A DNA stretch of 24,461 nucleotides from a virus, in the IMG/VR virus record IMGVR_UViG_3300023503_000172, positions 1 to 24,461 of that record; one strand, given 5' to 3'. Made by a program: the position numbers and the translations under genes. The notes under the pieces are model-generated. The model saw nothing but the letters and a program-made list of their open reading frames with translations. It did no database searches and was not told the origin of the DNA. Below, in pieces: positions 2,085 to 24,461 of the stretch (its first letter is position 1; each line of letters begins with the position of its first letter).

Positions 2085-2564
2085 CTATTGTTTTTTGAAA
2101 AATTCCTTTGCTAAGGGCAAAACATTCCTTATTGCTCTTTCTCCAAAATAGAAGCCGATAACAACAAAGTTTATTACCCAAAAAGCAGATTTAATCTGCT
2201 CATCTTGAATTTGCCACGATTGACTGAAAACTTGAAAATCTATGTAAGCCAAAGCATAAGCGAATAAAGGACGAAATGCACCTCTTAAAAAGATCAAAAG
2301 CGTCCCAATTAACGGGATGCTTCTTAAGTCGGTTACTGTTCCTTCATAATCGCGTATTCTTTCATTCAGATTTTTTTCGGCTTCGTTTTGTAGTTTGAAT
2401 AACTCAATCTCTTGTTTATGTAGAACATCTTTCAATTTCAATTCAAACTCCGCCTTCTCCATTTCGCTCATACTTGGCGGGAAATATTCTTTAACCGTGT
2501 CAACAACTTTCTCTGCGAGTCCGCCGGTAAAAAAGTTCGCTATCGAATCTAAAACTCCCATCAT
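2085..2564 (-). CDS. Three-helix holin (GTA/3TM holin type)
   Basis: The 159-residue product has an N-terminal amphipathic region, a charged helical or coiled segment at about 35-75, and then three hydrophobic helices at about 83-94, 96-113 and 127-140. The sequence RGAFRPLFAYALAY followed by FYFGERAI matches the characteristic 'WRP...' and 'GERT' features of the GTA_holin_3TM family. It would sit in the inner membrane and release or activate the endolysin encoded immediately upstream. The lysozyme TGA (2561-2563) overlaps an ATGATG. The AGGAAGG site is too close to the first ATG but well spaced from the second, so translation may begin at 2561, giving one residue fewer. Confidence 0.85.
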   Translation of the reverse strand: MMGVLDSIANFFTGGLAEKVVDTVKEYFPPSMSEMEKAEFELKLKDVLHKQEIELFKLQNEAEKNLNERIRDYEGTVTDLRSIPLIGTLLIFLRGAFRPLFAYALAYIDFQVFSQSWQIQDEQIKSAFWVINFVVIGFYFGERAIRNVLPLAKEFFKKQ

Positions 2565-3142
2565 ACCTTCCTTATATCAATTCTCTTAAACCATCCCACA
2601 TATTTTTCATTTACTTCATTGCTCAGCATAAGTTCAATGTAAGTCGCGCCTTGCAAAATGTTAAGTAAGTTGAATATCAATTTTTCTCCGTTCCGAGCGA
2701 GCGACACCTTCAACGTGCTGAGTGTTTGATTGCCGAATATTCCATCGGCAGCGATGTTACTGTAAAACTTTTCATTTCTATTTAGTATATTCAAAACAAT
2801 CTGGAGATTCTTGACCGCCGAGGATAATCCCATATTTACCGCCTGTTCAAAAAGCTCCTCGGCAATTTCGAAAGGGAGTAAATCACCTTTCAGTTTATCC
2901 CAATATTCCGATTTATAAAAATCTTTCACTAACTGCTGCAGCGCAATTGCGTTATCAAGATTATGAGGAAATCCGGGTGTGTTTCTCAGCGAATCAATTA
3001 TCTCCCAGCCTTCCCAATCCGGATGGAATCTGCGAGCAATACCTTTATATGTCTCGCCACCGCGATCGTCGGGATCGTTAACATATCCGCCTTCGAAACC
3101 GTCCAACTTATCGTGTGCTCTATCAAAATTATCTTCACTCAT
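2561..3142 (-). CDS. Endolysin: GH108-type N-acetylmuramidase
   Basis: This 193-residue phage lysozyme cuts peptidoglycan at the end of infection. The N-terminus carries the family signature EGGYVNDPDDRGGETYKGI at residues 17-35, with Glu17 the expected catalytic acid. Residues about 110-190 match the C-terminal peptidoglycan-binding domain of this family, including ADGIFGNQTL at 132-141. There is no signal peptide, so export depends on the holin, whose gene overlaps its stop codon. It overlaps the small membrane-protein gene upstream by 8 bp (3135-3142). Length and domain order are normal for the family, and the active-site region is complete, so the enzyme is probably functional. Confidence 0.92.
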   Translation of the reverse strand: MSEDNFDRAHDKLDGFEGGYVNDPDDRGGETYKGIARRFHPDWEGWEIIDSLRNTPGFPHNLDNAIALQQLVKDFYKSEYWDKLKGDLLPFEIAEELFEQAVNMGLSSAVKNLQIVLNILNRNEKFYSNIAADGIFGNQTLSTLKVSLARNGEKLIFNLLNILQGATYIELMLSNEVNEKYVGWFKRIDIRKV

Positions 3143-6357: not shown

Positions 6358-7149
6358 ATGATACCTTACATCGGCGGGAAATCATATTTGGCGAGTTGGA
6401 TAATTTCCAATTTTCCAAAGGATTACCAAGAGAAAACATACGTCGAAGTTTTCGGCGGAGGCGGCTGGGTCCTATATAAAAAAGAACCAAGCTCCATCGA
6501 AGTTTATAATGATTTAAATAGACACTTAGTCAATTTATTCAAAACGATAAGAGATAACTTCGAGGAGTTTAAGCATCGTGCGGAATGGACTCTCCATAGC
6601 CGCGAAATGTACAACGAGGCAAGAAAGAAATTATCCGACGACGAGTTTCTATGCGATATTGAAAAAGCCATGCATTATGCAATTCAGCAAATACAATCTT
6701 TTGCTGGGTTAGGCGGTTGGGGTTATGCCATTACTGCGGATAAAATTGTTTCCGGCAAATGGCTGCCATTTTTACGCCGACTCGATTTGATAAATGCACG
6801 GCTTAAACGAGTTCAGATTGAATGCCTCGACTTTGAAGATGTTATTAAAAAATACGATACCGAAAAAACATTGTTTTATGTCGATCCGCCTTATGTTGAG
6901 AAAGAATATTATTACAACAAAAACAACGTGAACTTCGGGTTTGAGGATCACGAACGATTAGCCTCTCTGTTACAGAACATAAAAGGCTCGTTTGTTCTTA
7001 GTTATTATGAACACAAACTTGTAAGAAAACTTTATGGGAATTGCAGAATAATTTCTAAGCAAACAATTAAACACAGCAGAGGTTCTGTGGGCAAGTACAA
7101 ACACATGAATAGACCAAGAGCCACAGACCTTTTAATAATGAATTATTGA
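6358..7149 (+). CDS. D12-class DNA N6-adenine methyltransferase (Dam-like)
   Basis: This 263-residue enzyme transfers a methyl group from S-adenosylmethionine to adenine in DNA. The N-terminal IPYIGGKSYLA (residues 2-12) and VFGGGG (31-36, motif I, cofactor binding) are followed by a helical target-recognition region containing QSFAGLGGWGY (113-123), and then the catalytic motif DPPY at 176-179. Domain order and length are normal for the D12 class. No restriction endonuclease gene is beside it, so it is probably a solitary phage methyltransferase that protects phage DNA or alters host gene control. It interrupts the gp36-gp37-like pair and has hairpins on both sides, which marks it as an inserted accessory gene. 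AGGAG precedes the start. Confidence 0.93.
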   Translation: MIPYIGGKSYLASWIISNFPKDYQEKTYVEVFGGGGWVLYKKEPSSIEVYNDLNRHLVNLFKTIRDNFEEFKHRAEWTLHSREMYNEARKKLSDDEFLCDIEKAMHYAIQQIQSFAGLGGWGYAITADKIVSGKWLPFLRRLDLINARLKRVQIECLDFEDVIKKYDTEKTLFYVDPPYVEKEYYYNKNNVNFGFEDHERLASLLQNIKGSFVLSYYEHKLVRKLYGNCRIISKQTIKHSRGSVGKYKHMNRPRATDLLIMNY

Positions 7150-7764: not shown

Positions 7765-8577
7765 ATGGCAAAGAGAAAAACAGAGCGTTCTGAGAGAGAG
7801 ATCATACTCGAATTCATCAACCTCGGTCGCGGGCATTTGGCAGAGAAAGAGAAGCTCGCCGCAGAGTTGGGAATTTCTCTTTCGACACTAAAATACAGAG
7901 TTAAAAAGTTTAAGAACGGCGAAGGAATCGGACGCAAAAAAAGGCGCGATGCCGGCATTCCCAAAAAAGAGCCGGAGCTGAGAACAAAACTCGCCTTCTT
8001 TGCAGAACTGGCAATGGGTAAGTCGGCGGATCAAGCCGGAGCAGAGCTTGGATTGACGGAACACCAAACAAACCGGCTTTCAAAAGAGTTTGCCAAACAG
8101 GACAAATGGCGCGCGCTGCGTAATGCTCCGCAGTTGGATGACCTACGTGAACTCGTGAAAGATATACTCCGTTTAGATATAGCCATCGTCGATGCTGAGA
8201 TGAACGGAGCATTCAAAGCAGAGCTTAAGGATCGGACAATCGTCATTCCGGTTGAAGAGCTGAAGGATATTCAAAACATACTTGCTCATTGTATACAGCG
8301 CGACGAAATGGCAAAAATCGATCCGGCGTTTGCTAATCTGTCAAAAGACGATCTAATAAATATCCGTGTCGCTTACCTCAAAGAATATTTTCTCGAAAAG
8401 AAAAATGCAGTGGACTTTGCCAGATTAGAAAGAGCGACTAAAATAAGTACACCGGAGCGTCAGCTTGATCTCGACATTGCTTATGCCTTGATAGATCACT
8501 TTAAGCCGGGACTGGATGAAACGGCTAAGATTAAAATACTTCGTTCAATAGTGGCAAGAGTGAAGGCGGAACGATGA
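7765..8577 (+). CDS. Putative terminase small subunit
   Basis: This 270-residue protein has two helix-turn-helix-like segments: KEKLAAELGISLSTLKYRVKKF (residues 28-49) and ADQAGAELGLTEHQTNRL (about 88-105). A helical C-terminal part follows. DNA-binding proteins of this type directly before the large terminase are usually the small subunit that recognises packaging sites; Mu gp27 occupies the equivalent place. Its stop overlaps the next start (ATGA at 8574-8577), which supports a shared complex. No Shine-Dalgarno sequence is seen before the ATG, and a TATAAT sequence lies only a few bases upstream, so its own start of transcription with a short leader is possible. Confidence 0.7.
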   Translation: MAKRKTERSEREIILEFINLGRGHLAEKEKLAAELGISLSTLKYRVKKFKNGEGIGRKKRRDAGIPKKEPELRTKLAFFAELAMGKSADQAGAELGLTEHQTNRLSKEFAKQDKWRALRNAPQLDDLRELVKDILRLDIAIVDAEMNGAFKAELKDRTIVIPVEELKDIQNILAHCIQRDEMAKIDPAFANLSKDDLINIRVAYLKEYFLEKKNAVDFARLERATKISTPERQLDLDIAYALIDHFKPGLDETAKIKILRSIVARVKAER

Positions 8578-10151
8578 GCTTCAGTTTAATTGAAAAACAG
8601 TTAGTCGAACGAGAACGGATTCTCGAAGAACGGAAGCTGGAGCTTCAAGACCTTGTAGTCGATATTACCGAAGCGGAGCGCAATAAGGTTCGGCAGAAAG
8701 CCTCCAAGGGAATGCGCGGTTTTTGGTTCTTTGCAAAGAAAGTTTTTCCTGAATATTTCAAATATCCTTTCGGACGTTTGCACAAAGATATAATCAAAGC
8801 CGCATTCGAAAAGAAAAGAACCGTTGATGTTTTCGCTGCGCCTCCGGAACACGGAAAAACAACATTGTTGAGAGTGTTCAAAATTTGGTCTGCTATTTAC
8901 GGTCATTATCATTACATCATTAAAGTAAGTGAAACTCAAGACCTTTCGACATTAGACCTTGCAATAATGAAATTAGAGTTTGAGCAAAACCCTCGGTTAA
9001 AGTTTCTTTACGGAGACCTCCGAACACACGGCAATTGGGAGGAAAGCCAGTTCGCAACAGCGCCGACGGAGTGGAACAAATACGGAACATTCTTCGAAGC
9101 ATTTGCTTACGGCATTCCGCCGACCGGTCGCGTCTGGAAATTTTTCCGTCCGGAGTTTTGCGACATAGACGATCTTGAGAATTATAAGAAGTCCGCGAAT
9201 GTTAATATCAGCAGAGAGAAACTGCAATTCATTAATAACGATATCGTGCCGAGGATTAGCGAGAAAGGTCACGTCATTTGGTTCGGCAACAATGCGCGGA
9301 AGACAATGGCTTTGAACATGATAATCGAGATGAAGGAGGAAGACCGGAGGTTTGAATATCCGGCTTTCCGGATTCATGTTTATCCGGCATGGAATAAACG
9401 TAAAGGAAAAGCGGAATGGCATGAACGATATCGATACAAAAGCGAAGAGGAAATGCGAGTCGGACTCGGAGTTGGAATGATGACTTGGCTGGGGAATTAT
9501 ATGCAGTCTCCTATTGTTCCGGAGGGAGGAATATTCAAGAGAAAAGATTGGCAGGAGTTTAGTAAACTTCCGAAAGACGCCGTTGGTATTATTCGCTGTG
9601 ACCCCGCTTCGGGGAAGAAGAACTGCTACAAAGTAGCCGTGGTTCTTTTGTATTCCAAAAGCACGCGGAAGTTTTATTGTCCGGCTGCTTATGTAAGACA
9701 AAGCGATTGGGAGCCGTACTTTCAAGCTCTTTATGATTTATATGAACGTTTCGAAAATCAATTGATTCGAATCGACTGGGAATCAAATTTTTACCAAGAT
9801 CAATATTTGAAATTCAGAGAACTATATCCTTCTGTAAAGCATAAACCGGACTTACCGATTAAGCCCGTGGATATTAAGTCTAATAAGGATATAGACATTC
9901 AAACGCTTGCCATTCCTTATGAATTCGGGAAGCTGATGTTCTCTGAAGACTTTGCCGAAACGAACGACGGACAAGAAGCACGCGCACAGTTGCTCGGTTA
10001 TCCGGATTATCCGTACGTCGATTTTCCGGACGCGCTTTCAAGAGCATACAAAGAATTATTCAAAATGTTCGCCGGATACTTGAGCGAAAGCCAAGGCGGA
10101 CGAGATCATTACGAATCATTAGGGAAAACAAGAACCACTCAATTTAGATAG
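8574..10151 (+). CDS. Terminase large subunit (Mu gp28-like)
   Basis: This 525-residue motor packages DNA into the prohead. The ATPase half shows a Walker A-like loop APPEHGKTT (89-97) and a Walker B candidate FCDIDDLEN (195-203), with the Asp pair 199-200. The C-terminal nuclease half has an RNase H-like pattern with acidic residues in IIRCDPASGK (Asp343), RIDWESN (Asp401, Glu403) and DFPDALSRAYK (Asp486). In Mu-like phages this protein cuts packaged DNA out of the host chromosome by a headful process, so virions should carry host DNA at their ends. It overlaps the small-subunit gene by 4 bp and is followed after 8 bp by the portal gene. It appears complete. Confidence 0.92.
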   Translation: MSFSLIEKQLVERERILEERKLELQDLVVDITEAERNKVRQKASKGMRGFWFFAKKVFPEYFKYPFGRLHKDIIKAAFEKKRTVDVFAAPPEHGKTTLLRVFKIWSAIYGHYHYIIKVSETQDLSTLDLAIMKLEFEQNPRLKFLYGDLRTHGNWEESQFATAPTEWNKYGTFFEAFAYGIPPTGRVWKFFRPEFCDIDDLENYKKSANVNISREKLQFINNDIVPRISEKGHVIWFGNNARKTMALNMIIEMKEEDRRFEYPAFRIHVYPAWNKRKGKAEWHERYRYKSEEEMRVGLGVGMMTWLGNYMQSPIVPEGGIFKRKDWQEFSKLPKDAVGIIRCDPASGKKNCYKVAVVLLYSKSTRKFYCPAAYVRQSDWEPYFQALYDLYERFENQLIRIDWESNFYQDQYLKFRELYPSVKHKPDLPIKPVDIKSNKDIDIQTLAIPYEFGKLMFSEDFAETNDGQEARAQLLGYPDYPYVDFPDALSRAYKELFKMFAGYLSESQGGRDHYESLGKTRTTQFR

Positions 10152-10159
10152 GATTTGTT

Positions 10160-11545
10160 ATGGAATTTAGAATTGGAAATTTATCAATAAGTTTTGCAAA
10201 ACGTAAAACGGAAGAGCCGAGAAAGCCGGTTAATAATCCTTCCGCATTACCTTCAAGCGATTACATATACGCACCGCTGAGGACTGCATTGCTGCCGACA
10301 CCGGCGGAATTGCGATACGCTTTGAATGCAATAAAATCCGATCCGAGACAAGTTCTCGATGTTATACGGAAACTCCCTCAAGCTGCACCGCATTTAGGCG
10401 GACTAATGGGAAAACGCCAAGACGCGGTTCTTTCACTCGAATTCGAAGTAAGTCCGCCGAAGCTTTTTGCGGAGGATAAAAACGAGCTGAGGAAGTGCGA
10501 AGAGATAACCAACCGGTTGCACAAATCGAATTTTGATAAGCTGCTAAAGAACCTTGTAAACTCGGTATTATTCGGGCACAGCGTAACAATGCCTCACTGG
10601 ATTCTGGATTCGAGAAATCAATATTATGCAATGTTTGAACCTATTGATTTTATTCACTTCACTAAGAAGGACGGAAAGATTGTATTGATCGCCGATAAGC
10701 GGGACAAGGATTTCTTAATAACGATAGGCGATAATGCAAACCTAACCGGAGCGAATGATAAGAATTATCTTGCTCAAAAACTATCCGAGCAAAAGAGTAA
10801 TGTGATCTTTTTGGATATTGATGAAAACACTCTTATAACATCTTCCACAAATCCATTCGAAGGTCTTGAGCGAGATTATATTGGCGGATGGATGAGACCG
10901 CTGCTATACTTAACTCTTCTGCTTCATTATGATATACTCGATTGGGCGAAATTCAACGAGATGTATCAAATGCCTTTGCGAGTTGGGAAATATGATTCCT
11001 TTGCATCCGATAAAGCCGTTGACATTTTGAAAACGGCAGTTAAGAATCTCGGCAGCGATGCAGCGGCGGTGATTGATAAAGCGACTGAGATTGAGTTTGT
11101 AGAAAGTAAAAGCGCAAAGGACGGAAGCGGTTATGCAAAGTTTGCCGAGTATATCGAAAACAAACAAAGCGTTCTTATCCGCGGCGAAACACTTACTACA
11201 CAAGTGGATTCAAAGGGCGGCAACAGAGCTCTTGGCGAAGTTCACATGCAAGTTGGAGCAGACAAGCTGTTGAACGATATCAAAACAATAACTCCAGTTG
11301 TACAAAAAGGAGTTATTGAGAAAGACTACTTTTTCAATTACGGTCTGCCTCCGGAAGGAATTTATCCGAAGTTCAAAATATACCCGAAGGAATTCAAAGA
11401 TACTGAAAGGCTGGCACGGATAATTCAAAACTTAAGCAGCGCCGGATTGGAATTTTCAAAGAGCTGGGCGCATGAACAATTCGGTACTAAGGCTCCTGCT
11501 GATGAAGAAGATAAATTCGGCGGCAAAGGTTCATTATTGTTATAA
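10160..11545 (+). CDS. Portal protein (DUF935, Mu gp29-like)
   Basis: This 461-residue protein forms the ring at the head vertex through which DNA enters and leaves. The segment PTPAELRYALNAIKSDPRQVLDVIRKLPQAAPHLGGLMGKRQDAVLSLEFEV (about residues 46-98) has the form of the DUF935 family, in which a helix precedes a conserved 'D.h......R..av..l.wev' strand. The central part includes LEYDI/LLLHYDILDWAKFNEMYQMPLRVGKYD (around 255-277), matching the family's 'W..F.E.yG.P.R.GKY' motif. The terminase-portal-G order is that of Mu with the F gene missing; an F-like gene is found in the early region instead. The C-terminus is short and acidic (DEEDKFGGKGS). Confidence 0.9.
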   Translation: MEFRIGNLSISFAKRKTEEPRKPVNNPSALPSSDYIYAPLRTALLPTPAELRYALNAIKSDPRQVLDVIRKLPQAAPHLGGLMGKRQDAVLSLEFEVSPPKLFAEDKNELRKCEEITNRLHKSNFDKLLKNLVNSVLFGHSVTMPHWILDSRNQYYAMFEPIDFIHFTKKDGKIVLIADKRDKDFLITIGDNANLTGANDKNYLAQKLSEQKSNVIFLDIDENTLITSSTNPFEGLERDYIGGWMRPLLYLTLLLHYDILDWAKFNEMYQMPLRVGKYDSFASDKAVDILKTAVKNLGSDAAAVIDKATEIEFVESKSAKDGSGYAKFAEYIENKQSVLIRGETLTTQVDSKGGNRALGEVHMQVGADKLLNDIKTITPVVQKGVIEKDYFFNYGLPPEGIYPKFKIYPKEFKDTERLARIIQNLSSAGLEFSKSWAHEQFGTKAPADEEDKFGGKGSLLL

Positions 11546-13445: not shown

Positions 13446-14012
13446 TTAACCAGTAGTATTCATTGCAACATACTGGTAATCATTATATGTGTCCAACACT
13501 TTATCTTTAATGCGCGGATATAGGTTTACCCGTTCGAGCAACCAGAAAGCGAACATAATAAAAGAAAGGAGGAATACGCCAATAACTGTAATTATCAGTA
13601 ATATTAATGAAGATTTAATAATATATGAAAAGAACAATGAAAGCTCTTGAGCTTTATTTCTCTCAAAATACTCGCGGTGTTTAGGCGCTAGAGATTCGAG
13701 AATCTCATTTCTTTCTTTGACAAACTTAATAATTTCCTTCTTCTTTTTTCGAGCGAACAGTATGCTGGATAAGAAAATAAGGTGGGATTCATGAGTCAAC
13801 CTTATTAATGCATTCATCTCTTCCCAGCGAAGTTTGAAGGCAGGGTTATCGAAAGGAATATTATTCTTTAGCGCATATTCAAATAATTGATCGCGCAAAA
13901 CAAATAATTCGTGTCGCGTTGAATCAACAAAATATTCTCTTATAAAATAAAACCATAATACAACAAAGATAATAATATTTATAACCGAAATAATTATTGT
14001 TTCATTCGTCAT
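13446..14012 (-). CDS. Membrane protein, last gene of lysogeny operon (candidate exclusion/defence)
   Basis: This 188-residue protein has a hydrophobic N-terminal helix (about 4-28), a hydrophilic cytoplasm-type centre (about 29-120) with the distinctive segment LRDQLFEYALKNNIPFDNPAF and then ALIRLTHE, and a long hydrophobic C-terminal stretch (about 128-162). From memory, proteins with this 'RD.LF......I.F..P.......mn..iR..H' core occur in other bacteria as unstudied hypotheticals, but I cannot confirm that here. Its start overlaps the stop of the 114-residue membrane-protein gene by ATGA, and GAGGATAA precedes it. The two probably act as one membrane complex, expressed with the repressor. 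Confidence 0.7.
   Translation of the reverse strand: MTNETIIISVINIIIFVVLWFYFIREYFVDSTRHELFVLRDQLFEYALKNNIPFDNPAFKLRWEEMNALIRLTHESHLIFLSSILFARKKKKEIIKFVKERNEILESLAPKHREYFERNKAQELSLFFSYIIKSSLILLIITVIGVFLLSFIMFAFWLLERVNLYPRIKDKVLDTYNDYQYVAMNTTG
13449..13477. terminator. Candidate bidirectional terminator between convergent operons
   Basis: ACCAGTA at 13449-13455 and TACTGGT at 13471-13477 form a perfect 7-bp stem at the point where the rightward late operon and the leftward lysogeny operon meet, only 6 bp apart. On the minus strand it is followed by a T-rich run (TAAATAATTTT). It overlaps the last codons of the leftward gene. Confidence 0.45.
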
Positions 14013-14353
14013 ATTTTATCCTCATGCCTTGTTGTTCCATCTTCATTTATACCGGAGGAAGTTTTCTCAGGCCAATACTTCTTTTGTCTATTATCGTAAT
14101 CTTTAGCAAAATATTTAGTGTTTTTTCTTCTTAGTCTCCGCTCGCGAAGAGCCCATATTACAGAAACTCCGGTTAATGTCCAACTAATATAAAACGATCC
14201 GCTGATATTTACAAGAGTCTTATAAAACACATCTACATTTATAACACCTTTATCAGCTAAATGTTTCAACATATCTGCAATAAAATAAGTGCATATTACT
14301 AATCCTATTGTTCTAATTGCAGTGCGTAATGACACCCATTTCTCTCTTATCAT
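14009..14353 (-). CDS. Small two-helix membrane protein, partner of the 188-residue protein
   Basis: This 114-residue protein has two probable membrane helices at about 13-30 and 47-68. A very basic stretch follows (RERRLRRK, about 70-77), and then a soluble tail ending TSSGINEDGTTRHEDKI. A basic cluster after the second helix places the tail in the cytoplasm. The tail resembles, from memory, the 'DP.RTSSGLT..G.T...D' ending of a widespread uncharacterised membrane family. AGGTGA precedes the ATG. It overlaps the following membrane-protein gene by 4 bp and follows the lipoprotein gene by 51 bp in the repressor operon. Function is unknown; superinfection exclusion or anti-phage defence is an inference from location. 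Confidence 0.7.
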   Translation of the reverse strand: MIREKWVSLRTAIRTIGLVICTYFIADMLKHLADKGVINVDVFYKTLVNISGSFYISWTLTGVSVIWALRERRLRRKNTKYFAKDYDNRQKKYWPEKTSSGINEDGTTRHEDKI

Positions 14354-14404
14354 AGATCACCTATTAATTCATGTTTTCCCGCTTTATCGCAAAGCCGCTT
14401 ACGG

Positions 14405-15037
14405 TTAAGGATGTATGTATTTTGATTTAAGTTGTCCGGTTTTTATATAATACGCCGCTAAATGTCCATTTTCATTTGCTTCCGGCTGTAAAAAAGGATT
14501 GTCGGTTACGCAATTTACTTCGAACTCATAAGTACTGTCTAATGGCGTTCTGGTTACGTAATATCCATATGCAGCCGAGGTTGCTCTGGTGGGCGTATAA
14601 GTTTGCAATATATAATCTGTGGCAATTTGCAATTTCATCGGACTGAATCTTCCTATAAAACTCTGCGCTCTTGCCCATGCTTTTTCGGCTTCCGAGTTTG
14701 GTAGTTCAAATATTAAAGGACAAGCCATTGCTTCGTCATAGTATTTCTGCTCTTCTGAAAACTCCCTATGCATTCCCGGTGTCAATACTTCATCCTTTGC
14801 AATAAAACCAGTTATATTATCGTAATTAACTTTATAGAAAAGCCACGTAGAAGCGGTTGCCGTTAGCGTGTCTTCCGGTCCAACTTCGGCAATTTTACCG
14901 CTGATTTTGTAATCTTTTTTGTAAATGCCGGTGTTTGAATTCTTTGGAATAATTTTAATAGGTTTTCTTAATACGGTGAGAGATGCTGTGCAACCGGTAA
15001 TCATAAAAACTATAATAGCAAAAGCAAAACGCTTCAT
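14405..15037 (-). CDS. Prophage lipoprotein in the repressor operon
   Basis: This 210-residue protein has a lipoprotein signal: basic start (MKR), hydrophobic core and lipobox MITGC with Cys16 as the lipidated residue. The residue after Cys is Thr, not Asp, so an outer-membrane position is likely in a diderm host. Residues about 38-85 (YKKDYKISGKIAEV ... WLFYKVNYDNITGFIAKDEVL) look like a bacterial SH3-type fold. The rest, with ARAQSFIGRFSPMKLQ and ATDYILQTY around 120-150, is of unknown type. The ribosome site AGAGG is good. It starts 11 bp after the repressor gene, so it is made in the lysogen. Phage lipoproteins in such positions often block receptors of related phages. Confidence 0.8.
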   Translation of the reverse strand: MKRFAFAIIVFMITGCTASLTVLRKPIKIIPKNSNTGIYKKDYKISGKIAEVGPEDTLTATASTWLFYKVNYDNITGFIAKDEVLTPGMHREFSEEQKYYDEAMACPLIFELPNSEAEKAWARAQSFIGRFSPMKLQIATDYILQTYTPTRATSAAYGYYVTRTPLDSTYEFEVNCVTDNPFLQPEANENGHLAAYYIKTGQLKSKYIHP

Positions 15038-15048
15038 AGCTAACCTCT

Positions 15049-15480
15049 TTATTTTTTGTTCTTGTATTTTATACCATTATACTTTGCAATCTCTTCAGCA
15101 ACCTTACTAAGTTTGCTGACTTCAGTAATAAGAGTGTACTTTTCTTTCCTTAGTTCTTCATTTTCTTTTTTAAGTCTTTTATTTTCATCAATTATTTTAT
15201 TTAAATTCAAATCACGTTCTCTTTCATCTAATTCTCTAATTATATTTGATTCGTATTCCGGTTCTTCTCCAGTAATAATCCACAATATTCTTCTATTGCT
15301 CATTTTAGCTATATTAACTAACTGTTCATAAGTAGGATAAGCCCTTCCTTTTTCCCAATGAGCAACATTGTTCTTGGCTTTGACACCTATTGAATTAGCA
15401 AAAGATTCCTGAGTATGACCTAGCTCTAATCTAATTTTTTTTATTCTCTTGCCAAAGTTTATGTCTTTTTCTTTAGGCAT
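15049..15480 (-). CDS. Lysogeny repressor with HTH and coiled-coil
   Basis: This 143-residue DNA-binding protein is read away from the early operon. Residues 9-70 form an HTH_3 (Cro/CI-type) domain: GKRIKKIRLELGHTQESFAN, followed by VAHWEKGRAYPTYEQLVNIA, the usual recognition-helix region. Residues about 80-130 are a charged coiled coil, probably for dimerisation. There is no S24 peptidase domain, so it is not expected to cleave itself after DNA damage, unlike lambda CI or the LexA at the right of the window. It should bind the inverted TTTCACTT repeat in the gap to the early operon. A ribosome site is weak and far (AAGGA about 15 bases upstream), which suggests low-level translation. Confidence 0.85.
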   Translation of the reverse strand: MPKEKDINFGKRIKKIRLELGHTQESFANSIGVKAKNNVAHWEKGRAYPTYEQLVNIAKMSNRRILWIITGEEPEYESNIIRELDERERDLNLNKIIDENKRLKKENEELRKEKYTLITEVSKLSKVAEEIAKYNGIKYKNKK

Positions 15481-15487
15481 AATATTT

Positions 15488-15530
15488 TTTCACTTTCCTT
15501 CTTGACATAAGTGAAAGATTTTTGTACTTT
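15488..15530 (+). promoter_or_regulatory. Early promoter with overlapping operator
   Basis: TTGACA at 15502-15507 and TACTTT at 15525-15530 are 17 bp apart and drive the early operon; TACTTTT fits the TANNTTT form of a Bacteroidota-type -7 element. The -35 box lies between two inverted half-sites, TTTCACTT 15488-15495 and AAGTGAAA 15509-15516 (centre-to-centre 21 bp, two helical turns). A dimer bound here would block RNA polymerase. The first early gene starts at 15575. Confidence 0.7.
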
Positions 15531-16170: not shown

Positions 16171-16347
16171 ATGAACGGCAAACTATCAAAAAAGTTAAGA
16201 CGCGCAGCTAAGCAGATCGCAGTTCAAAAAGTAGAATCCACATTAACTGAAACCGGCAAAGGAACAACCGTTGCCTGGCGAACCGGCAGCGAGAAGCACA
16301 TCTACAAAAAAACGAAAGAACTTATTAAAAACGGGAAGCTGAAATGA
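16171..16347 (+). CDS. 58-residue basic protein upstream of the transposase
   Basis: This short gene has an AAGGTGA ribosome site and its TGA overlaps the transposase ATG (16344-16347), so it probably couples translation of the two. The protein starts MNGKLSKKLRRAAKQIA, an amphipathic basic helix, and has a central GTTVAWRTGS turn. Small 'KKLRR..' proteins directly before transposase genes are seen in other Mu-like phages, as far as I recall. No function can be assigned. Confidence 0.6.
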   Translation: MNGKLSKKLRRAAKQIAVQKVESTLTETGKGTTVAWRTGSEKHIYKKTKELIKNGKLK

Positions 16348-18329
16348 AAAGTTTTGACATTTGGTTAACCACAGATCGCGCTGCACGGTTAGAAGGATAT
16401 TCGGAAAGGACGATACAGAGAAGAATTAAATCAGGGTATTACTCGAAAGCGTTAACACGGAAAAAGAGTAAACCAAACGGCGGATATTATTACGAAATTC
16501 ACATAAGTGCGCTAAGCGAAGCGGCTCAATCTTTGGTTATTTCCAACTTGTCGCCGGTTGACAACAAGAAAGAAGTCGCACCAAATCGGAAACCGAGAGC
16601 CGATAAAGGAACTTCAAAAGTACCGGCTCATATCATTTATCGCGCTGCTGCAATAATAACAATGGCTAAAACTTCTTCCCCGAACAAATTAAAGAAAGGG
16701 TTCGGGTACAAAGAAGGCTACAGGTTCTTTTTAGATATATGTAAAGAAGAAAAAGTAAAGCCTGTTTCATACAGAAGATTCATAGATTTAACCAAGCCTT
16801 TCGTCGATACAGAAATTCAAAAGTATAACAACAAAGGCGGTATAAAATTCCGGAATGATCACGAAATGGTTCTGCGTCATGATTATTCCATCTATGAGCC
16901 GATGCAGTTCATACAGAACGATCACTCCCAATTCGATGTGCTTTGCATGCACGAAGGGAAAATCATTAGACCCTGGGCGGCGTTTCATAATTCTGTAGGC
17001 GATAGGATTTTAAGCTATCCCACTATCGTCGAGCGTCCGGATAGTTTCAGTTTGGCGGATAATCTCTCCAACTTTGTTTTGAAATACGGATTGAGCCAAA
17101 AGCCGGTCATATATAAAAGCGATCACGGCAAGGCGATGAAAAGCAGGTTGATGACTAAGAACGAAGTAAAGGAAATCGAATTAAAACCGTTCAAGTTGGA
17201 AGAACAACACGAACTTGTAATGAAACTTATGGGCATAGGACTTTCACACGAAAAAGGCTTGATTCAAAATCTCGGACTTGTTGAAACTCATTCAACAGTA
17301 CGTTTACCGAGAACAAAGCTAATCGAAAGGCAATTCGGCATTGGCGGAACAATGGAGTGGTTCAAGGATCGAACAGAATACACCGGAAGGAAATATGAAG
17401 AAAAACCGGAGAGACTTGAAAAGTTAGTTAAAAGCAGAGCGATATGGACAAGCGAAGAAATGGTGGATTATGTTATAGCGAAAGTTGACGAATTAAACAG
17501 AAGAGCACACGCCGGAATTAAGTCCGAATGCAGCGGAAAGTTCGCTGTACCTCATACATTGAATTTAGATCTCAAATATTTCCAAGAGTCCGAATTGGTT
17601 AACAAAGCATTTGCAGGCTATATACCTCAAAGTATGGCAGACGTATATAGGATATTGAACGACGCAGAATGGAGCAAAAAGCAACTCGGTTGTGAGCTCT
17701 ACAGTCCGCTCTGGCGAAGAAAAGTTTTTGAACTGTGTGGCTGGCAAAGCCGAGCATTACCTTCGAGAGAAACTTTAGCGATGCTGTCAATGAAAGCTGA
17801 AATTAGAACGGTTCATAAATACGGAATTCTTATCAATAACAATGCATATATTAATCTCAAGCTACAGCATTATATCGGTCAGAAAGTTGTTATTCGTTAC
17901 TCGCCTGATAATCTCATCAAGATTCGTGAGCAAAGCGGTAAAGAGGTAATATTTATAAAAGAAATTGCAGTATTCGAATTAGCTAAAGAAAAATTCATCT
18001 GTATTGCCGAGCCTCATCCGAGAACAATCACCGGAATTCACGCAGAGGGATATGCAAGAACATTTATCAAGGCGCGCGCAGAGCAGAATAAAGAAATAAT
18101 AAAAGCAAAAAAAATTACATCCAGAATAGCAGAAGATAATGAGAATATAACCCACCGACCGACACAAATAATTCAATTAAACACCGCTAGAGAAATTGCA
18201 GCAAAAGAGATGAAGGTTGTTAAGCAACAGGCTGCAGAACAAAAGAAAGCCGAAAAAGCGCTTAAAGAAAGTTTTGAAAAAGAGCTATCTGAAATTTACG
18301 GAACACCAATAAAAACGGAGTTAACATGA
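16344..18329 (+). CDS. MuA-type DDE transposase
   Basis: This 661-residue enzyme (Mu A is 663) joins phage ends to target DNA for integration and replicative transposition. Residues 3-62 are a Mu-type winged DNA-binding domain (LTTDRAARLEGYSERTIQRR ... GGYYYEIHISALSE). The catalytic core has Asp193 (IQNDHSQFD), Asp260 (YKSDHGK) and Glu328 (KLIERQF). The two Asp residues are 67 apart, as in MuA (269 and 336). Residues 490-545 form the beta-barrel of the Mu-transposase C domain, and 570-661 are helical and lysine-rich, where MuB and ClpX contacts occur in Mu. Its stop overlaps the MuB-like gene start by ATGA. All catalytic residues are present, so it should be active. Confidence 0.96.
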   Translation: MKSFDIWLTTDRAARLEGYSERTIQRRIKSGYYSKALTRKKSKPNGGYYYEIHISALSEAAQSLVISNLSPVDNKKEVAPNRKPRADKGTSKVPAHIIYRAAAIITMAKTSSPNKLKKGFGYKEGYRFFLDICKEEKVKPVSYRRFIDLTKPFVDTEIQKYNNKGGIKFRNDHEMVLRHDYSIYEPMQFIQNDHSQFDVLCMHEGKIIRPWAAFHNSVGDRILSYPTIVERPDSFSLADNLSNFVLKYGLSQKPVIYKSDHGKAMKSRLMTKNEVKEIELKPFKLEEQHELVMKLMGIGLSHEKGLIQNLGLVETHSTVRLPRTKLIERQFGIGGTMEWFKDRTEYTGRKYEEKPERLEKLVKSRAIWTSEEMVDYVIAKVDELNRRAHAGIKSECSGKFAVPHTLNLDLKYFQESELVNKAFAGYIPQSMADVYRILNDAEWSKKQLGCELYSPLWRRKVFELCGWQSRALPSRETLAMLSMKAEIRTVHKYGILINNNAYINLKLQHYIGQKVVIRYSPDNLIKIREQSGKEVIFIKEIAVFELAKEKFICIAEPHPRTITGIHAEGYARTFIKARAEQNKEIIKAKKITSRIAEDNENITHRPTQIIQLNTAREIAAKEMKVVKQQAAEQKKAEKALKESFEKELSEIYGTPIKTELT

Positions 18330-19315
18330 ACAAAATATTGGGTAAATGGCAAAAGTATTGCGACGGTCACGGAATTACCAGAGAAGCCGCCGCCGCACGT
18401 CTCGGATTGCCTTGGTTCGAATACCTATTCATGATCCAGGGCAAAAGAGAATTTCCGGAGAGCATACTTTACAAAATGAGTAAAATCATCGAAGGGCAAT
18501 CGCTGCTGGACGGAACAATTTTGCCGACGGCGTTACACAATGAATTCGAAAAGCTGATACTTCACGCAATGCAGGACAAGCAAATGCTTACACTTTCAGC
18601 GCCAACCGGCGCAGGGAAAACGACCGTGGCAAAATCACTCGCTTACAAACACAATGCAAAGTACATACAGATTCTTTCCGAATTCGAAAAACCGAAAACG
18701 GCTGCAAGGAAAAGTTTTGTAAGAGAACTGCTGAAGCTTTACGGACTGAACGACAGATCGGTTAACAATCTCCGTCACTTAATCAATATGTTACAGAGTG
18801 ATGCACGCAGTTTATTAATTATCGATGAAGCACAGCGGCTGCTTACGGAAGATTGGGGGTATTTCAAAGTGCTACAGGATATTTTCGATAACATTCCCTC
18901 TCTCTCAATCGTTCTACTTGGGAACTATAGATTTTACGATTCAATGTTCGTTCCTAGTCAGCTAACATACAGCGGCGTTCTGGATGAAGAACAATATCTG
19001 CGCAGAATTACCAAAGTAATAAAACTGCCGCGACTGCAAGCATCAGACGTTAAGCTGTGGGCTGATTATCACGGAATAAAACTGAACAAAAACGAATGCA
19101 ATCAATTGGCTGAATTCTTTTCGGTACGCGCAGGGCTTTCCGATCTTGAAAACGTACGTAAAGAATTAATAAGAGTTATGGGTAGAGGCAGAATTAAAGA
19201 ATATGCCGATGTCGATGCGGCAACAATATTAACAGTTTACAAAGCAATACATACAAGAATTAGAGAGGTTGGTTTTGAAGAGGAAATTCCACAAAAATCT
19301 GCGCTCTCGGCTTAA
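18326..19315 (+). CDS. MuB-type AAA+ ATPase, target-DNA activator
   Basis: This 329-residue protein binds target DNA and delivers it to the transposase. Residues 1-60 are a helix-turn-helix region (ITREAAAARLGLPWFEYLFM), as in MuB. The AAA+ core has Walker A PTGAGKTT (93-100), Walker B LLIIDEAQRL (163-172) with Asp167-Glu168, and a sensor-like LLGNYRFYD (around 196-204). The C-terminal domain (about 250-329) is helical, like the DNA-binding C-domain of MuB. The gene is coupled to the transposase by a 4-bp overlap. The next gene's likely start lies inside its last 15 codons. It is slightly longer than Mu B. Confidence 0.93.
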   Translation: MNKILGKWQKYCDGHGITREAAAARLGLPWFEYLFMIQGKREFPESILYKMSKIIEGQSLLDGTILPTALHNEFEKLILHAMQDKQMLTLSAPTGAGKTTVAKSLAYKHNAKYIQILSEFEKPKTAARKSFVRELLKLYGLNDRSVNNLRHLINMLQSDARSLLIIDEAQRLLTEDWGYFKVLQDIFDNIPSLSIVLLGNYRFYDSMFVPSQLTYSGVLDEEQYLRRITKVIKLPRLQASDVKLWADYHGIKLNKNECNQLAEFFSVRAGLSDLENVRKELIRVMGRGRIKEYADVDAATILTVYKAIHTRIREVGFEEEIPQKSALSA

Positions 19316-21229: not shown

Positions 21230-21748
21230 ATGGGAAATCTCATGATAAACTCATTCGAGGAAGCCGATCTCAAGCTATTAGAGCTCGGCAAACATGAGTC
21301 GTTCATCGCCAAAAAAGAAGCAGAGATGAACGCTAAAATTCAAAAGATTAAAGAGAAGTTCGATCAGGAAACCGAGCATGCGAGAGCTGCAAAATTGGCG
21401 ATTGAAAAAGATTTGCAGACGTTCTGTTTGCTGAATAAAAAGGAGTTTGCGGATAAGCGTTCAAGAAAGCTGATGCACGGTGTGATAGGCTTCAGAACCG
21501 GAACGCCAAAAGTGTTGCTCTTGAACAGAAAGTATAACTGGAAAACCGTCCTCGAACTATTGAAAAAAGTATTCCCCGGGAAATACGTCCGGACAAAAGA
21601 AGAGCCGAACAAAGACGCGATTTTGGCGGATGTTGCTCAACAAAAACTGGATGATCAACAGCTTGCAGCGGTCGGGCTTAAGGTCGATCAAGACGAGAAA
21701 TTCTTCGTCGAAATCGATTGGGAAAACTTAAACGAGGAGGCGGCATGA
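21230..21748 (+). CDS. gam: Gam-like host-nuclease inhibitor
   Basis: This 172-residue protein belongs to the Mu Gam family, which binds the ends of double-stranded DNA and protects them from exonuclease such as RecBCD; Mu Gam is a relative of eukaryotic Ku. Residues 20-70 form a long charged helix (KKEAEMNAKIQKIKEKFDQE onward). HGVIGFRTGTPKVLLLNRKYNWKTVLELLKKVFP (82-115) is the strongly conserved core, followed by 'KxEPNKDAIL' and LAAVGLKVDQDEKFFVEI, the typical C-terminal strand. AGGAG lies upstream, and its stop overlaps the next start (21745-21748). It appears complete. Confidence 0.92.
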   Translation: MGNLMINSFEEADLKLLELGKHESFIAKKEAEMNAKIQKIKEKFDQETEHARAAKLAIEKDLQTFCLLNKKEFADKRSRKLMHGVIGFRTGTPKVLLLNRKYNWKTVLELLKKVFPGKYVRTKEEPNKDAILADVAQQKLDDQQLAAVGLKVDQDEKFFVEIDWENLNEEAA

Positions 21749-22483: not shown

Positions 22484-23183
22484 CCGGCTGAAGCTGAGAA
22501 ACGCAATATTTAATTTATTGCAAAAAGACGCCGATAGAATACTCGGTAATTATCTCGATCGCGTGGAAAGTATTACCGAAGCAGGAATGAAAGAGGGGGA
22601 TTTAACTTCATCGAAATTCAGAGCGGTTATTATGGATTTTACGGAAGATTTTAATTACAATGCTACTTCAATAACTAATGCCGCTCATAGCAAGATGACG
22701 AAATTATATGATCAGATTATCAACGCGCTGGATGTCAGCCTTCCGCTGGATTACAATGTTCTCCCCTCCACGCAAATCAACAGCCAACAAATAATAAATG
22801 AGGTACAAGCCGTAATAAACGAATACCGCTCGGGAAATTTGACCGAATTGGAAACCAAGAGGCTTATCTCCGGAAGGATTCAGAAACCCGCACATATCGC
22901 CAATACAATTATAAACACTCAAGTAGCCGGTTGGGATAACGAAACCACGAGGAGTGTGGCGGCATTAGCTCAACTCACTCATTATTTATATTTTGGTCCC
23001 ATATCGGATAACACGCGTCCGTTTTGCCGCGCACGTGTCGGGCAGACATTTACCGAAGCCGAGCTGCACGCGATGGATAACGGGCAAGGATTGCCGGTGA
23101 TCCGTTACCTCGGCGGATATAATTGCTTGCACGAACTTATTCCGGTTAATCCGGCATGGAAGGAGTTGAAATTAGTTGCATAG
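22449..23183 (+). CDS. Mu F-like minor head / morphogenesis protein
   Basis: This 244-residue protein belongs with phage Mu F-type head-morphogenesis proteins. The C-terminal part YFGPISDNTRPFCRARVGQTFT (181-202) and the later NGQG and GGYNCLHEL (223-230) carry the signature 'D..TR..C......G..f...(e).......N.GH...P....YNCrH...P'. The N-terminal 130 residues are helical (LRLHRNRLKLRNAIFNLLQKDADRIL). Structural proteins of this kind normally follow the portal in the late operon; here it lies in the early transcript just after a zinc-ribbon gene. AAGGAAAG is the ribosome site. It is short relative to full-length Mu F (about half), so only the C-terminal family part may be shared. Confidence 0.8.
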   Translation: MDIKEYLRLHRNRLKLRNAIFNLLQKDADRILGNYLDRVESITEAGMKEGDLTSSKFRAVIMDFTEDFNYNATSITNAAHSKMTKLYDQIINALDVSLPLDYNVLPSTQINSQQIINEVQAVINEYRSGNLTELETKRLISGRIQKPAHIANTIINTQVAGWDNETTRSVAALAQLTHYLYFGPISDNTRPFCRARVGQTFTEAELHAMDNGQGLPVIRYLGGYNCLHELIPVNPAWKELKLVA

Positions 23184-23206
23184 AGTTTATAAGAGGGATG
23201 GATGAA

Positions 23207-23482
23207 ATGAGTAAGAATAGAATACTATGTAAAAACTGTGATTTTCCATTAGCATGGTGCAAATGTCGAGACTATAAGCGGCACTTTGAAAGAATAATTA
23301 CGCCGGCAAAAAAGAAATTTTATATAAAGTGGAAGTTTTATGATATAAAGGACAAAACTGTTGCTCAAAGATGTAATTATACTATAACGAATTATTATAA
23401 AACTCTAAAGGCGAGAGAAGAAGCCTTGAAGGCGCTAATCAAGAAGGGAAGATATATTGTTGGTGTTGGGAAAAGAGACTGA
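23207..23482 (+). CDS. Small Cys-rich protein at end of early operon
   Basis: I place the start at ATG 23207 (91 residues), with AGAGGG about 9 bases upstream; ATGs at 23198 and 23156 are possible. CKNC (8-11) and CKC (18-20) form a knuckle that could bind zinc (CKNCDFPLAWCKC). The rest is basic and aromatic (KKKFYIKWKFYDIKDK). No family is recognised. It is the last phage gene seen, before the repeat-rich gene-free stretch, so it is a likely accessory (cargo) gene. Confidence 0.5.
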   Translation: MSKNRILCKNCDFPLAWCKCRDYKRHFERIITPAKKKFYIKWKFYDIKDKTVAQRCNYTITNYYKTLKAREEALKALIKKGRYIVGVGKRD

Positions 23483-23521
23483 CAAAATGTCATTTACGAA
23501 CGAACATACCGCCCTTATTTT

Positions 23522-23573
23522 TGTCGTTGCGCTGTCGTTGCGCTGTCGTTGCGCCCATATTGTGTCGTTGCGC
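23522..23573 (+). repeat. Tandem 11-bp repeats TGTCGTTGCGC (plus a distant copy)
   Basis: TGTCGTTGCGC occurs three times back to back (23522-23532, 23533-23543, 23544-23554) and again at 23563-23573 after an 8-bp gap. A further near copy, TGTCGTTGCG, lies at 23658-23667. All point the same way. The unit is one helical turn long, so a protein array could bind on one face. The location between the last phage gene and lexA fits a transposase-binding end of the element. Confidence 0.85.
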
Positions 23574-23612
23574 CCCTTTGATTTTTCTCCATATTCGCAC
23601 TTTTCGGAAAAA

Positions 23613-23720
23613 TATCATTTCACTATAATTAAATATATGAAGATTATCATTTCACTTTGTCGTTGCGGTATGCGAAAACGAGCTAAAAACGCATTGTTGT
23701 GATTAGGTTATCGTTTCACT
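23613..23720 (+). repeat. Three TATCRTTTCACT elements at 32-bp multiples
   Basis: TATCATTTCACT at 23613-23624 and at 23645-23656, and TATCGTTTCACT at 23709-23720. Starts are 32 and 64 bp apart, about 3 and 6 helical turns, so all lie on one DNA face. Copies two and three contain TTTCACTT, the octamer of the early operator at 15488. Their form (TTTCAC ... TGCGAAAA near 23671) recalls MuA end-binding sites. The stretch from 23483 to 23822 contains these repeats, the lexA promoter and no credible gene. Confidence 0.7.
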
Positions 23721-23769
23721 TAACAAAGGATTTGCGGCTTTTTTATTTTAAAATATTTTTAACAAGAAC

Positions 23770-23810
23770 TTGACACGTGTGCGTTTGTTCACTATATTTG
23801 TAGTAAACAA
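23770..23810 (+). promoter_or_regulatory. lexA promoter and candidate LexA operator
   Basis: TTGACA at 23770-23775 and TATATT at 23793-23798 are 17 bp apart; the second extends to TATATTTG, the TANNTTTG form. A near-perfect inverted repeat, TTGTTCAC 23785-23792 and GTAAACAA 23803-23810, flanks the -10 box with a 10-bp centre. LexA usually represses its own gene, so this is a candidate SOS operator, though it is not a classical E. coli or Bacillus box. Confidence 0.65.
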
Positions 23811-23822
23811 TTGGACACTAGA

Positions 23823-24461
23823 ATGAAAAAAGAACTTACAGCAAGACAACAAGAAATTCTCAATTTTATTCAAGATTTCATTGATGAGAATAATTATCCC
23901 CCAACTTATAGAGAGATTGGAGCGAAATTCAACATTGCTAGTACGTTCGGAGTAAAACGCCATATTGATGCCTTAATAAAGAAAGGTTATTTGATTTCCG
24001 GGAATAATACCAGCCGAACTTTAAGTTTAGTAAATCAAGGACCAAAATCCGGAAGTTCAAAAGTTGCAGAAGATTTCCTGGAAATACCGCTCATCGGTCG
24101 TGTGGCCGCGGGATATCCGGTATTAGCTGAAGAAAATGTGGAAGGTTATTTATCTGTCGGTAAGGATTTAATAAGGAAAGGGAGTGAACTTTTCGGTCTT
24201 AAAGTTCGCGGCGATAGTATGATTGAAGCCGGAATATTAGAAAATGATATTGTGATTGTAAGCATACAAAAATATGCGGAGAATGGCGATATTGTAGTTG
24301 CTTTATTGGAAGGTGAATCAACTTTGAAAAGATTTAAAAAAGATAACGAAGGAATTAAGTTAATTCCCGAAAACAAGGAGTATCCCGTAATTGCCATAAA
24401 CAATTATGAGGAATTTTCGATAATTGGGAAGGTAGTAGGTCTATTCAGAAATTATAATTAA
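23823..24461 (+). CDS. lexA: LexA SOS repressor
   Basis: The start is ATG 23823 (212 residues), since MKKELTARQQEIL is the family N-terminus; a TTG at 23811 lies in the promoter region. No ribosome site is obvious. The N-domain (about 1-70) is the LexA winged HTH (YPPTYREIGAKFNIASTFGVKRHIDALIKKGYL). In the C-terminal S24 peptidase domain the cleavage site is Ala-Gly in RVAAGYP (96-97), the nucleophile is Ser132 in GDSM and the base is Lys169 in STLKRF. These are 37 residues apart, as in E. coli LexA (119 and 156). It should self-cleave with RecA and free SOS genes. It is more likely a host gene next to the prophage end than a phage repressor, but this is not proven. Confidence 0.92.
   Translation: MKKELTARQQEILNFIQDFIDENNYPPTYREIGAKFNIASTFGVKRHIDALIKKGYLISGNNTSRTLSLVNQGPKSGSSKVAEDFLEIPLIGRVAAGYPVLAEENVEGYLSVGKDLIRKGSELFGLKVRGDSMIEAGILENDIVIVSIQKYAENGDIVVALLEGESTLKRFKKDNEGIKLIPENKEYPVIAINNYEEFSIIGKVVGLFRNYN

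Follow-up and report, generated by a model that had tools for sequence, protein, structure and literature searches.

A coupled pair of membrane-protein genes behind the likely repressor of a Mu-like phage, distantly related to the membrane part of the P2_AC1 2TM-1TM-TIR anti-phage system

The likely repressor gene of a Mu-like phage is followed on its own strand by genes for a predicted lipoprotein and two membrane proteins. The question is whether these genes build one envelope complex acting against other phages, as the first-pass annotation had claimed, or are pieces of cargo to be considered separately. The DNA analysed (the window, 24,461 nucleotides) is an IMG/VR virus record whose gene content is that of a Mu-like transposable phage, with the following landmarks.

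Between 2561 and 5533, minus strand: endolysin, major head protein and head protease (endolysin at 2561-3142)
8574-10151: terminase
10160-11545: portal
16344-18329, plus strand: MuA-like transposase
18326-19315, plus strand: MuB-like ATPase
21230-21748, plus strand: Gam
23811-24461: LexA (TIGR00498, E 6e-63)

The S24 protein at 23811-24461 was considered as the phage repressor and rejected on its identification as LexA. Since this segment encodes a LexA equivalog, it is probably host DNA past the right end of the phage, and the right end together with the phage-host junction probably falls within ~23183-23811. The order of the genes from 671 to 23183 is unlike that of Mu, the repressor and transposition genes coming after the head genes, on the side of the right end. 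The head genes point two ways, a layout found also in two relatives reached via the transposase: an IMG/VR contig (L002, with 57% identity across the aligned part) and a prophage within a Melioribacteraceae MAG (L003, with ~61%). A DNA methyltransferase gene located among the head genes of the window (6358-7149) is missing from both. Judging from the placement of the second relative in a Melioribacteraceae MAG, Ignavibacteriota are the probable hosts of the window phage.

The group of genes in question comprises four minus-strand genes preceded by a candidate operator.

15481-15523, just upstream of the repressor start: inverted repeat, candidate operator (15-nt arms, 80% complementary)
15049-15480, minus strand: HTH (Cro/CI-type) regulator, 143 aa, no protease domain (HTH_3, E 4.4e-8)
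14405-15037, minus strand: predicted lipoprotein, 210 aa ('ITGC' lipobox)
14009-14353, minus strand: small membrane protein ('2TM' component), 114 aa (phrog_27816, E 2e-5)
13446-14012, minus strand: membrane protein ('1TM' component), 188 aa (phrog_13156, E 1.4e-18)

The arrangement described earlier for these genes is correct in order and position. The lipoprotein gene follows the repressor gene after 11 bp, 51 bp separate it from the gene of the 114-aa protein, and the latter overlaps the gene of the 188-aa protein by 4 bp (ATGA). Equally correct is that the group is read away from the early genes, MuA, MuB and Gam being encoded on the opposite (plus) strand. With the S24 protein identified as LexA, the role of lysogeny repressor likely falls to the 143-aa HTH protein, which heads the operon; an HTH gene occupies the same position in both relatives. 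Promoter and terminator scans gave nothing beyond chance level, and no stable hairpin was found in the 51-bp gap ahead of the membrane-protein genes.

Searches for close relatives of the window proteins in viral contigs and phage records gave nothing convincing, and homologues of the 188-aa protein came to light only with a degenerate DNA pattern for its LRD core. This pattern led to eight phage contigs, each encoding such a homologue (20-24% identity). In every one of them the gene immediately upstream, read in the same direction, specifies a small protein in which two hydrophobic helices are followed by a basic stretch and the tail; an alignment-based scan supplied further loci. Co-occurrence was seen from both sides. 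Starting from the large protein in IMG/VR, the small partner lay directly upstream in 13 of the 13 distinct loci counted outside Leptospira. Starting from the tail motif of the small protein, 15 stretches were recovered, two of them stopping at a contig edge, and the large gene lay directly downstream in all 13 testable loci, one copy being decayed. About 20 distinct intact pairs were collected, the window counted and some closely related to one another, and most pair loci share the 4-base gene overlap. The 114/188 genes are a conserved, tightly coupled two-gene family, as the first-pass annotation had supposed for the membrane pair.

When compared with profiles built without the window, the 188-aa and 114-aa proteins were recovered among 919 ORFs with E values of 1.6e-27 and 1.7e-17, respectively, and each is matched by an independently built family (phrog_13156 and phrog_27816). 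Both membrane genes are thus taken as real on the strength of these profile matches, and two PHROG families of unknown function are now tied to one gene pair. In the family alignment the 188-aa protein has an N-terminal transmembrane helix, a core LRDxLF...A...IPFDNPAF and a C-terminal hydrophobic segment; its two strong hydrophobic segments span residues 1-29 and 123-162. The 114-aa protein is laid out as a helical hairpin, a basic stretch and the conserved tail TSSGINEDGTTRHED, which across the family takes the form R[ST]SS.LT..G.TR.ED; its hydrophobic segments lie under the simple hydropathy cut-off used, which those of its homologues often exceed. The two motifs singled out beforehand, the 'TSSG..EDGTT' tail and 'LRDQLFEYA...IPFDNPAF', proved to be the most conserved parts of the family. 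Pfam has no model for either partner, and fold searches with a single-sequence AlphaFold model of the 188-aa protein (pLDDT 70, pTM 0.33, too weak) gave no significant match. Among 395 Bacteroidota genomes the window protein found no copy and phrog_13156 marginal matches only.

The window and its two relatives mostly agree in gene order in the part that begins with the head genes and ends at the right end; the minus-strand genes between a conserved 430-aa gene and the repressor differ among the three. The IMG/VR contig carries another, different lipoprotein in this slot, and the Melioribacteraceae prophage a DUF2335 membrane protein together with a secreted one. Because the same place in two relatives holds different envelope proteins, the repressor-led slot is one of variable cargo, occupied by envelope proteins. 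The 114/188 pair is missing from both of these close relatives, and its GC content (0.32-0.33) is lower than that of the phage core (0.40-0.43).

The lipoprotein probably stands outside this coupling. The first-pass annotation had counted it into the complex, which the findings do not support: none of the other pair loci has it, and searches of viral contigs yielded no relative. Its C-terminal half matches phrog_16082 (E 7.7e-9), a weak match lies in the early-region operon of an E. coli phage, and its single-sequence AlphaFold model (pLDDT 35) is too weak. The lipoprotein is best treated as separate cargo within the same operon.

The affinities of the pair itself point to a known defence system. 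The PADLOC model 1TM-TIR (PDLC02977) is matched by every one of the 17 large-family members, the E value being 4e-11 at best and 0.0036 for the copy in the window by itself. Of four small partners scanned, one matches the model 2TM-TIR (PDLC02978), collinearly and with an E of 1e-3. A query taken from a Bacteroidota genome in which 1TM-TIR matches at E 3e-38 led to Escherichia phage P2_AC1 (AC1). The gene set of this phage consists of 2TM (gp04), 1TM (gp03) and TIR (gp02) and is known as Rst_2TM_1TM_TIR in DefenseFinder. With AC1 identified, the idea that the PADLOC names pointed to retrons was given up. Profiles of the TIR-less large family match AC1 gp03 over nearly its full length (E 5e-6 to 2e-5), and by this profile evidence the large protein is clearly, if distantly, homologous to both PADLOC 1TM-TIR and gp03. 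For the small-family profiles AC1 gp04 was the best match outside the family, at a weak E of 0.02-0.11, and the hhalign comparison of the small family with gp04/PDLC02978 was likewise weak (E 0.002 at a probability of 13%). The small protein is probably a homologue of gp04, mainly from its position and topology.

The third component was sought in two ways. The TIR family PF13676 was found in none of 25 records with the large gene, many of them fragmentary, and was found in AC1. The AC1 TIR protein used as query gave nothing significant in the window or the pair loci, many of whose records are fragmentary. Because no TIR gene was found, and because gp04 of AC1 is without the conserved tail, the pair is not placed within the three-gene 2TM-1TM-TIR system; its sequences indicate a relationship to the membrane part of that system.

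Rousset et al. cloned the three genes of AC1 and observed protection of E. coli against three phages, lambda, LF82_P8 and P2; in their proposal, the TIR protein produces a messenger by which the membrane proteins are switched on (PMC9122126). With no TIR gene found, the pair is without this proposed activator, and the defence demonstrated for AC1 may not extend to it. The complex had been called unstudied, which is only partly right because the AC1 homologues have been cloned and tested (PMC9122126); the word still suits the TIR-less family. The supposed function in defence gains from the membership of distant homologues of the pair in a validated anti-phage system, with the lipoprotein left outside the module.

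From the pairing and the homology observed, we favour, with a probability of roughly 0.55, a TIR-less exclusion or abortive-infection module, expressed in lysogeny, carried as mobile cargo and representing a branch of the AC1 membrane pair. In the mechanism that we propose, the pair would be made in the lysogen from the repressor operon, and both proteins would probably form one inner-membrane complex. According to the positive-inside rule, the LRD core of the large protein and the tail of the small one should face the cytoplasm. Upon infection by a second phage, core and tail would sense the infection directly, taking over what the TIR product is proposed to do in the AC1 study. No TIR gene being adjacent, the sensing would therefore lie with the complex itself, with a host factor or with a TIR protein elsewhere in the cell. 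The complex would then disturb the membrane, loss of membrane integrity being the most likely output, as proposed for other membrane effectors, and the invader would be stopped through exclusion or abortive infection. These observations suggest that in many temperate phages the membrane proteins of a TIR defence system exist on their own, and they open the testable question of what role the membrane partners have and whether the TIR protein is dispensable. A further-reaching and clearly more tentative proposal is that the widespread form is a self-sufficient two-protein membrane sensor-effector, in which tail and LRD core sense infection, and that AC1 is a derived branch having the same effector under a TIR signal.

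Superinfection exclusion without killing, in which the pair would act at the inner membrane to stop related phages from injecting DNA or bringing it in, with no toxic effector state, like Sie- or Imm-type proteins, seems to us unlikely. It would agree with membrane proteins being encoded together with a repressor and with the different envelope proteins in the cargo slot of the relatives. One member of the large family also gave a sub-threshold match to SieB, but its E value of 0.096 is at chance level. Moreover, AC1 stops unrelated phages (lambda, LF82_P8) and has a TIR protein, which argues for a triggered response over a receptor or entry block (PMC9122126).

The first-pass annotation had raised, as a check, the question whether the pair recurs beside repressors. 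This is true of several unrelated phages, the window and three others (L020, L025 and L044) having it on the repressor strand behind the repressor, but several further copies lie in structural or lysis regions. The repressor of L025 is of the CI family (PF07022, E 3e-19). That of L020 is of the S24-type CI class, with one protease-like gene between it and the pair. In L044 the repressor is of the HTH_3 type (E 2e-14), and the pair is preceded by the gene of a small membrane-anchored protein and followed by an integrase gene. The pair adjoins an integrase in L021 and L061, and is inside head or lysis regions in L017, L019, L024, L065 and L066. These varied positions fit the scatter expected for a mobile cargo module; expression in the lysogen is doubtful for the copies within head or lysis regions. 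In the Mu-like L024, L065 and L066 the pair stands between the virion-morphogenesis (gpG-like) gene and the protease/scaffold gene, an interval that is apparently a repeatedly used cargo site.

An accessory role in lysis or its timing, the pair modulating holin or spanin function, would account for its place just upstream of an amidase in L017 and within late-gene blocks in L019, L024, L065 and L066. It is nevertheless improbable: L017 and L025 are equipped, apart from the pair, with an endolysin and with apparent holin or Rz genes, the window endolysin is encoded elsewhere (2561-3142) with the pair in the repressor operon, close relatives do without the pair, and comparison of the pair with the lysis families of PHROGs gave no match.

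The pair family occurs also on plasmid-like records of Leptospira, where the large gene is intact in loci in which the small gene is broken or swapped for an unrelated DUF2335 gene. Between L035 (5397-5920) and L038 (4998-5920) the small-partner gene has been replaced by a DUF2335 membrane-protein cassette, the flanks being 93-99% identical and the large gene unchanged across the exchange. The small-partner gene is frameshifted beside an intact large gene in L046 and L051 (Leptospira interrogans Linhai plasmid lcp3), and both genes are truncated in L069. A membrane toxin-antitoxin module, one partner toxic and the other neutralising it so that the prophage is stabilised, would suit two small coupled genes on mobile elements, these plasmid-like records included, but is hardly probable, since the loss of the small gene beside a large one that was kept is hard to square with a toxic large protein needing its small antitoxin, and also with the roles exchanged.

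Three known systems allow the pair to be placed. DUF2335 proteins (PF10097) resemble it in use, filling the cargo slot of the Melioribacteraceae relative and, on Leptospira plasmids, taking the place of the small partner; a homology with that partner was considered and rejected on the basis of profile comparison. The RexAB system of lambda consists of two genes in the prophage repressor operon, one encoding a membrane protein, and a membrane-based stop of superinfection has been proposed for it. The pair is likewise found in the repressor operon in the window, L020, L025 and L044, as judged by strand and position, whereas both of its partners are membrane proteins; no RexA or RexB match was found among the Pfam and PHROG matches. 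From AC1 the pair differs in having no TIR gene, in a 4-base overlap of its genes where AC1 has a 20-base gap, and in the tail of the small protein, absent from gp04, to which sequence similarity is weak. With AC1 it shares the succession of 2TM and 1TM genes on one strand, found in all loci, similar protein lengths, a homologous 1TM protein and the location in a phage cargo hotspot.
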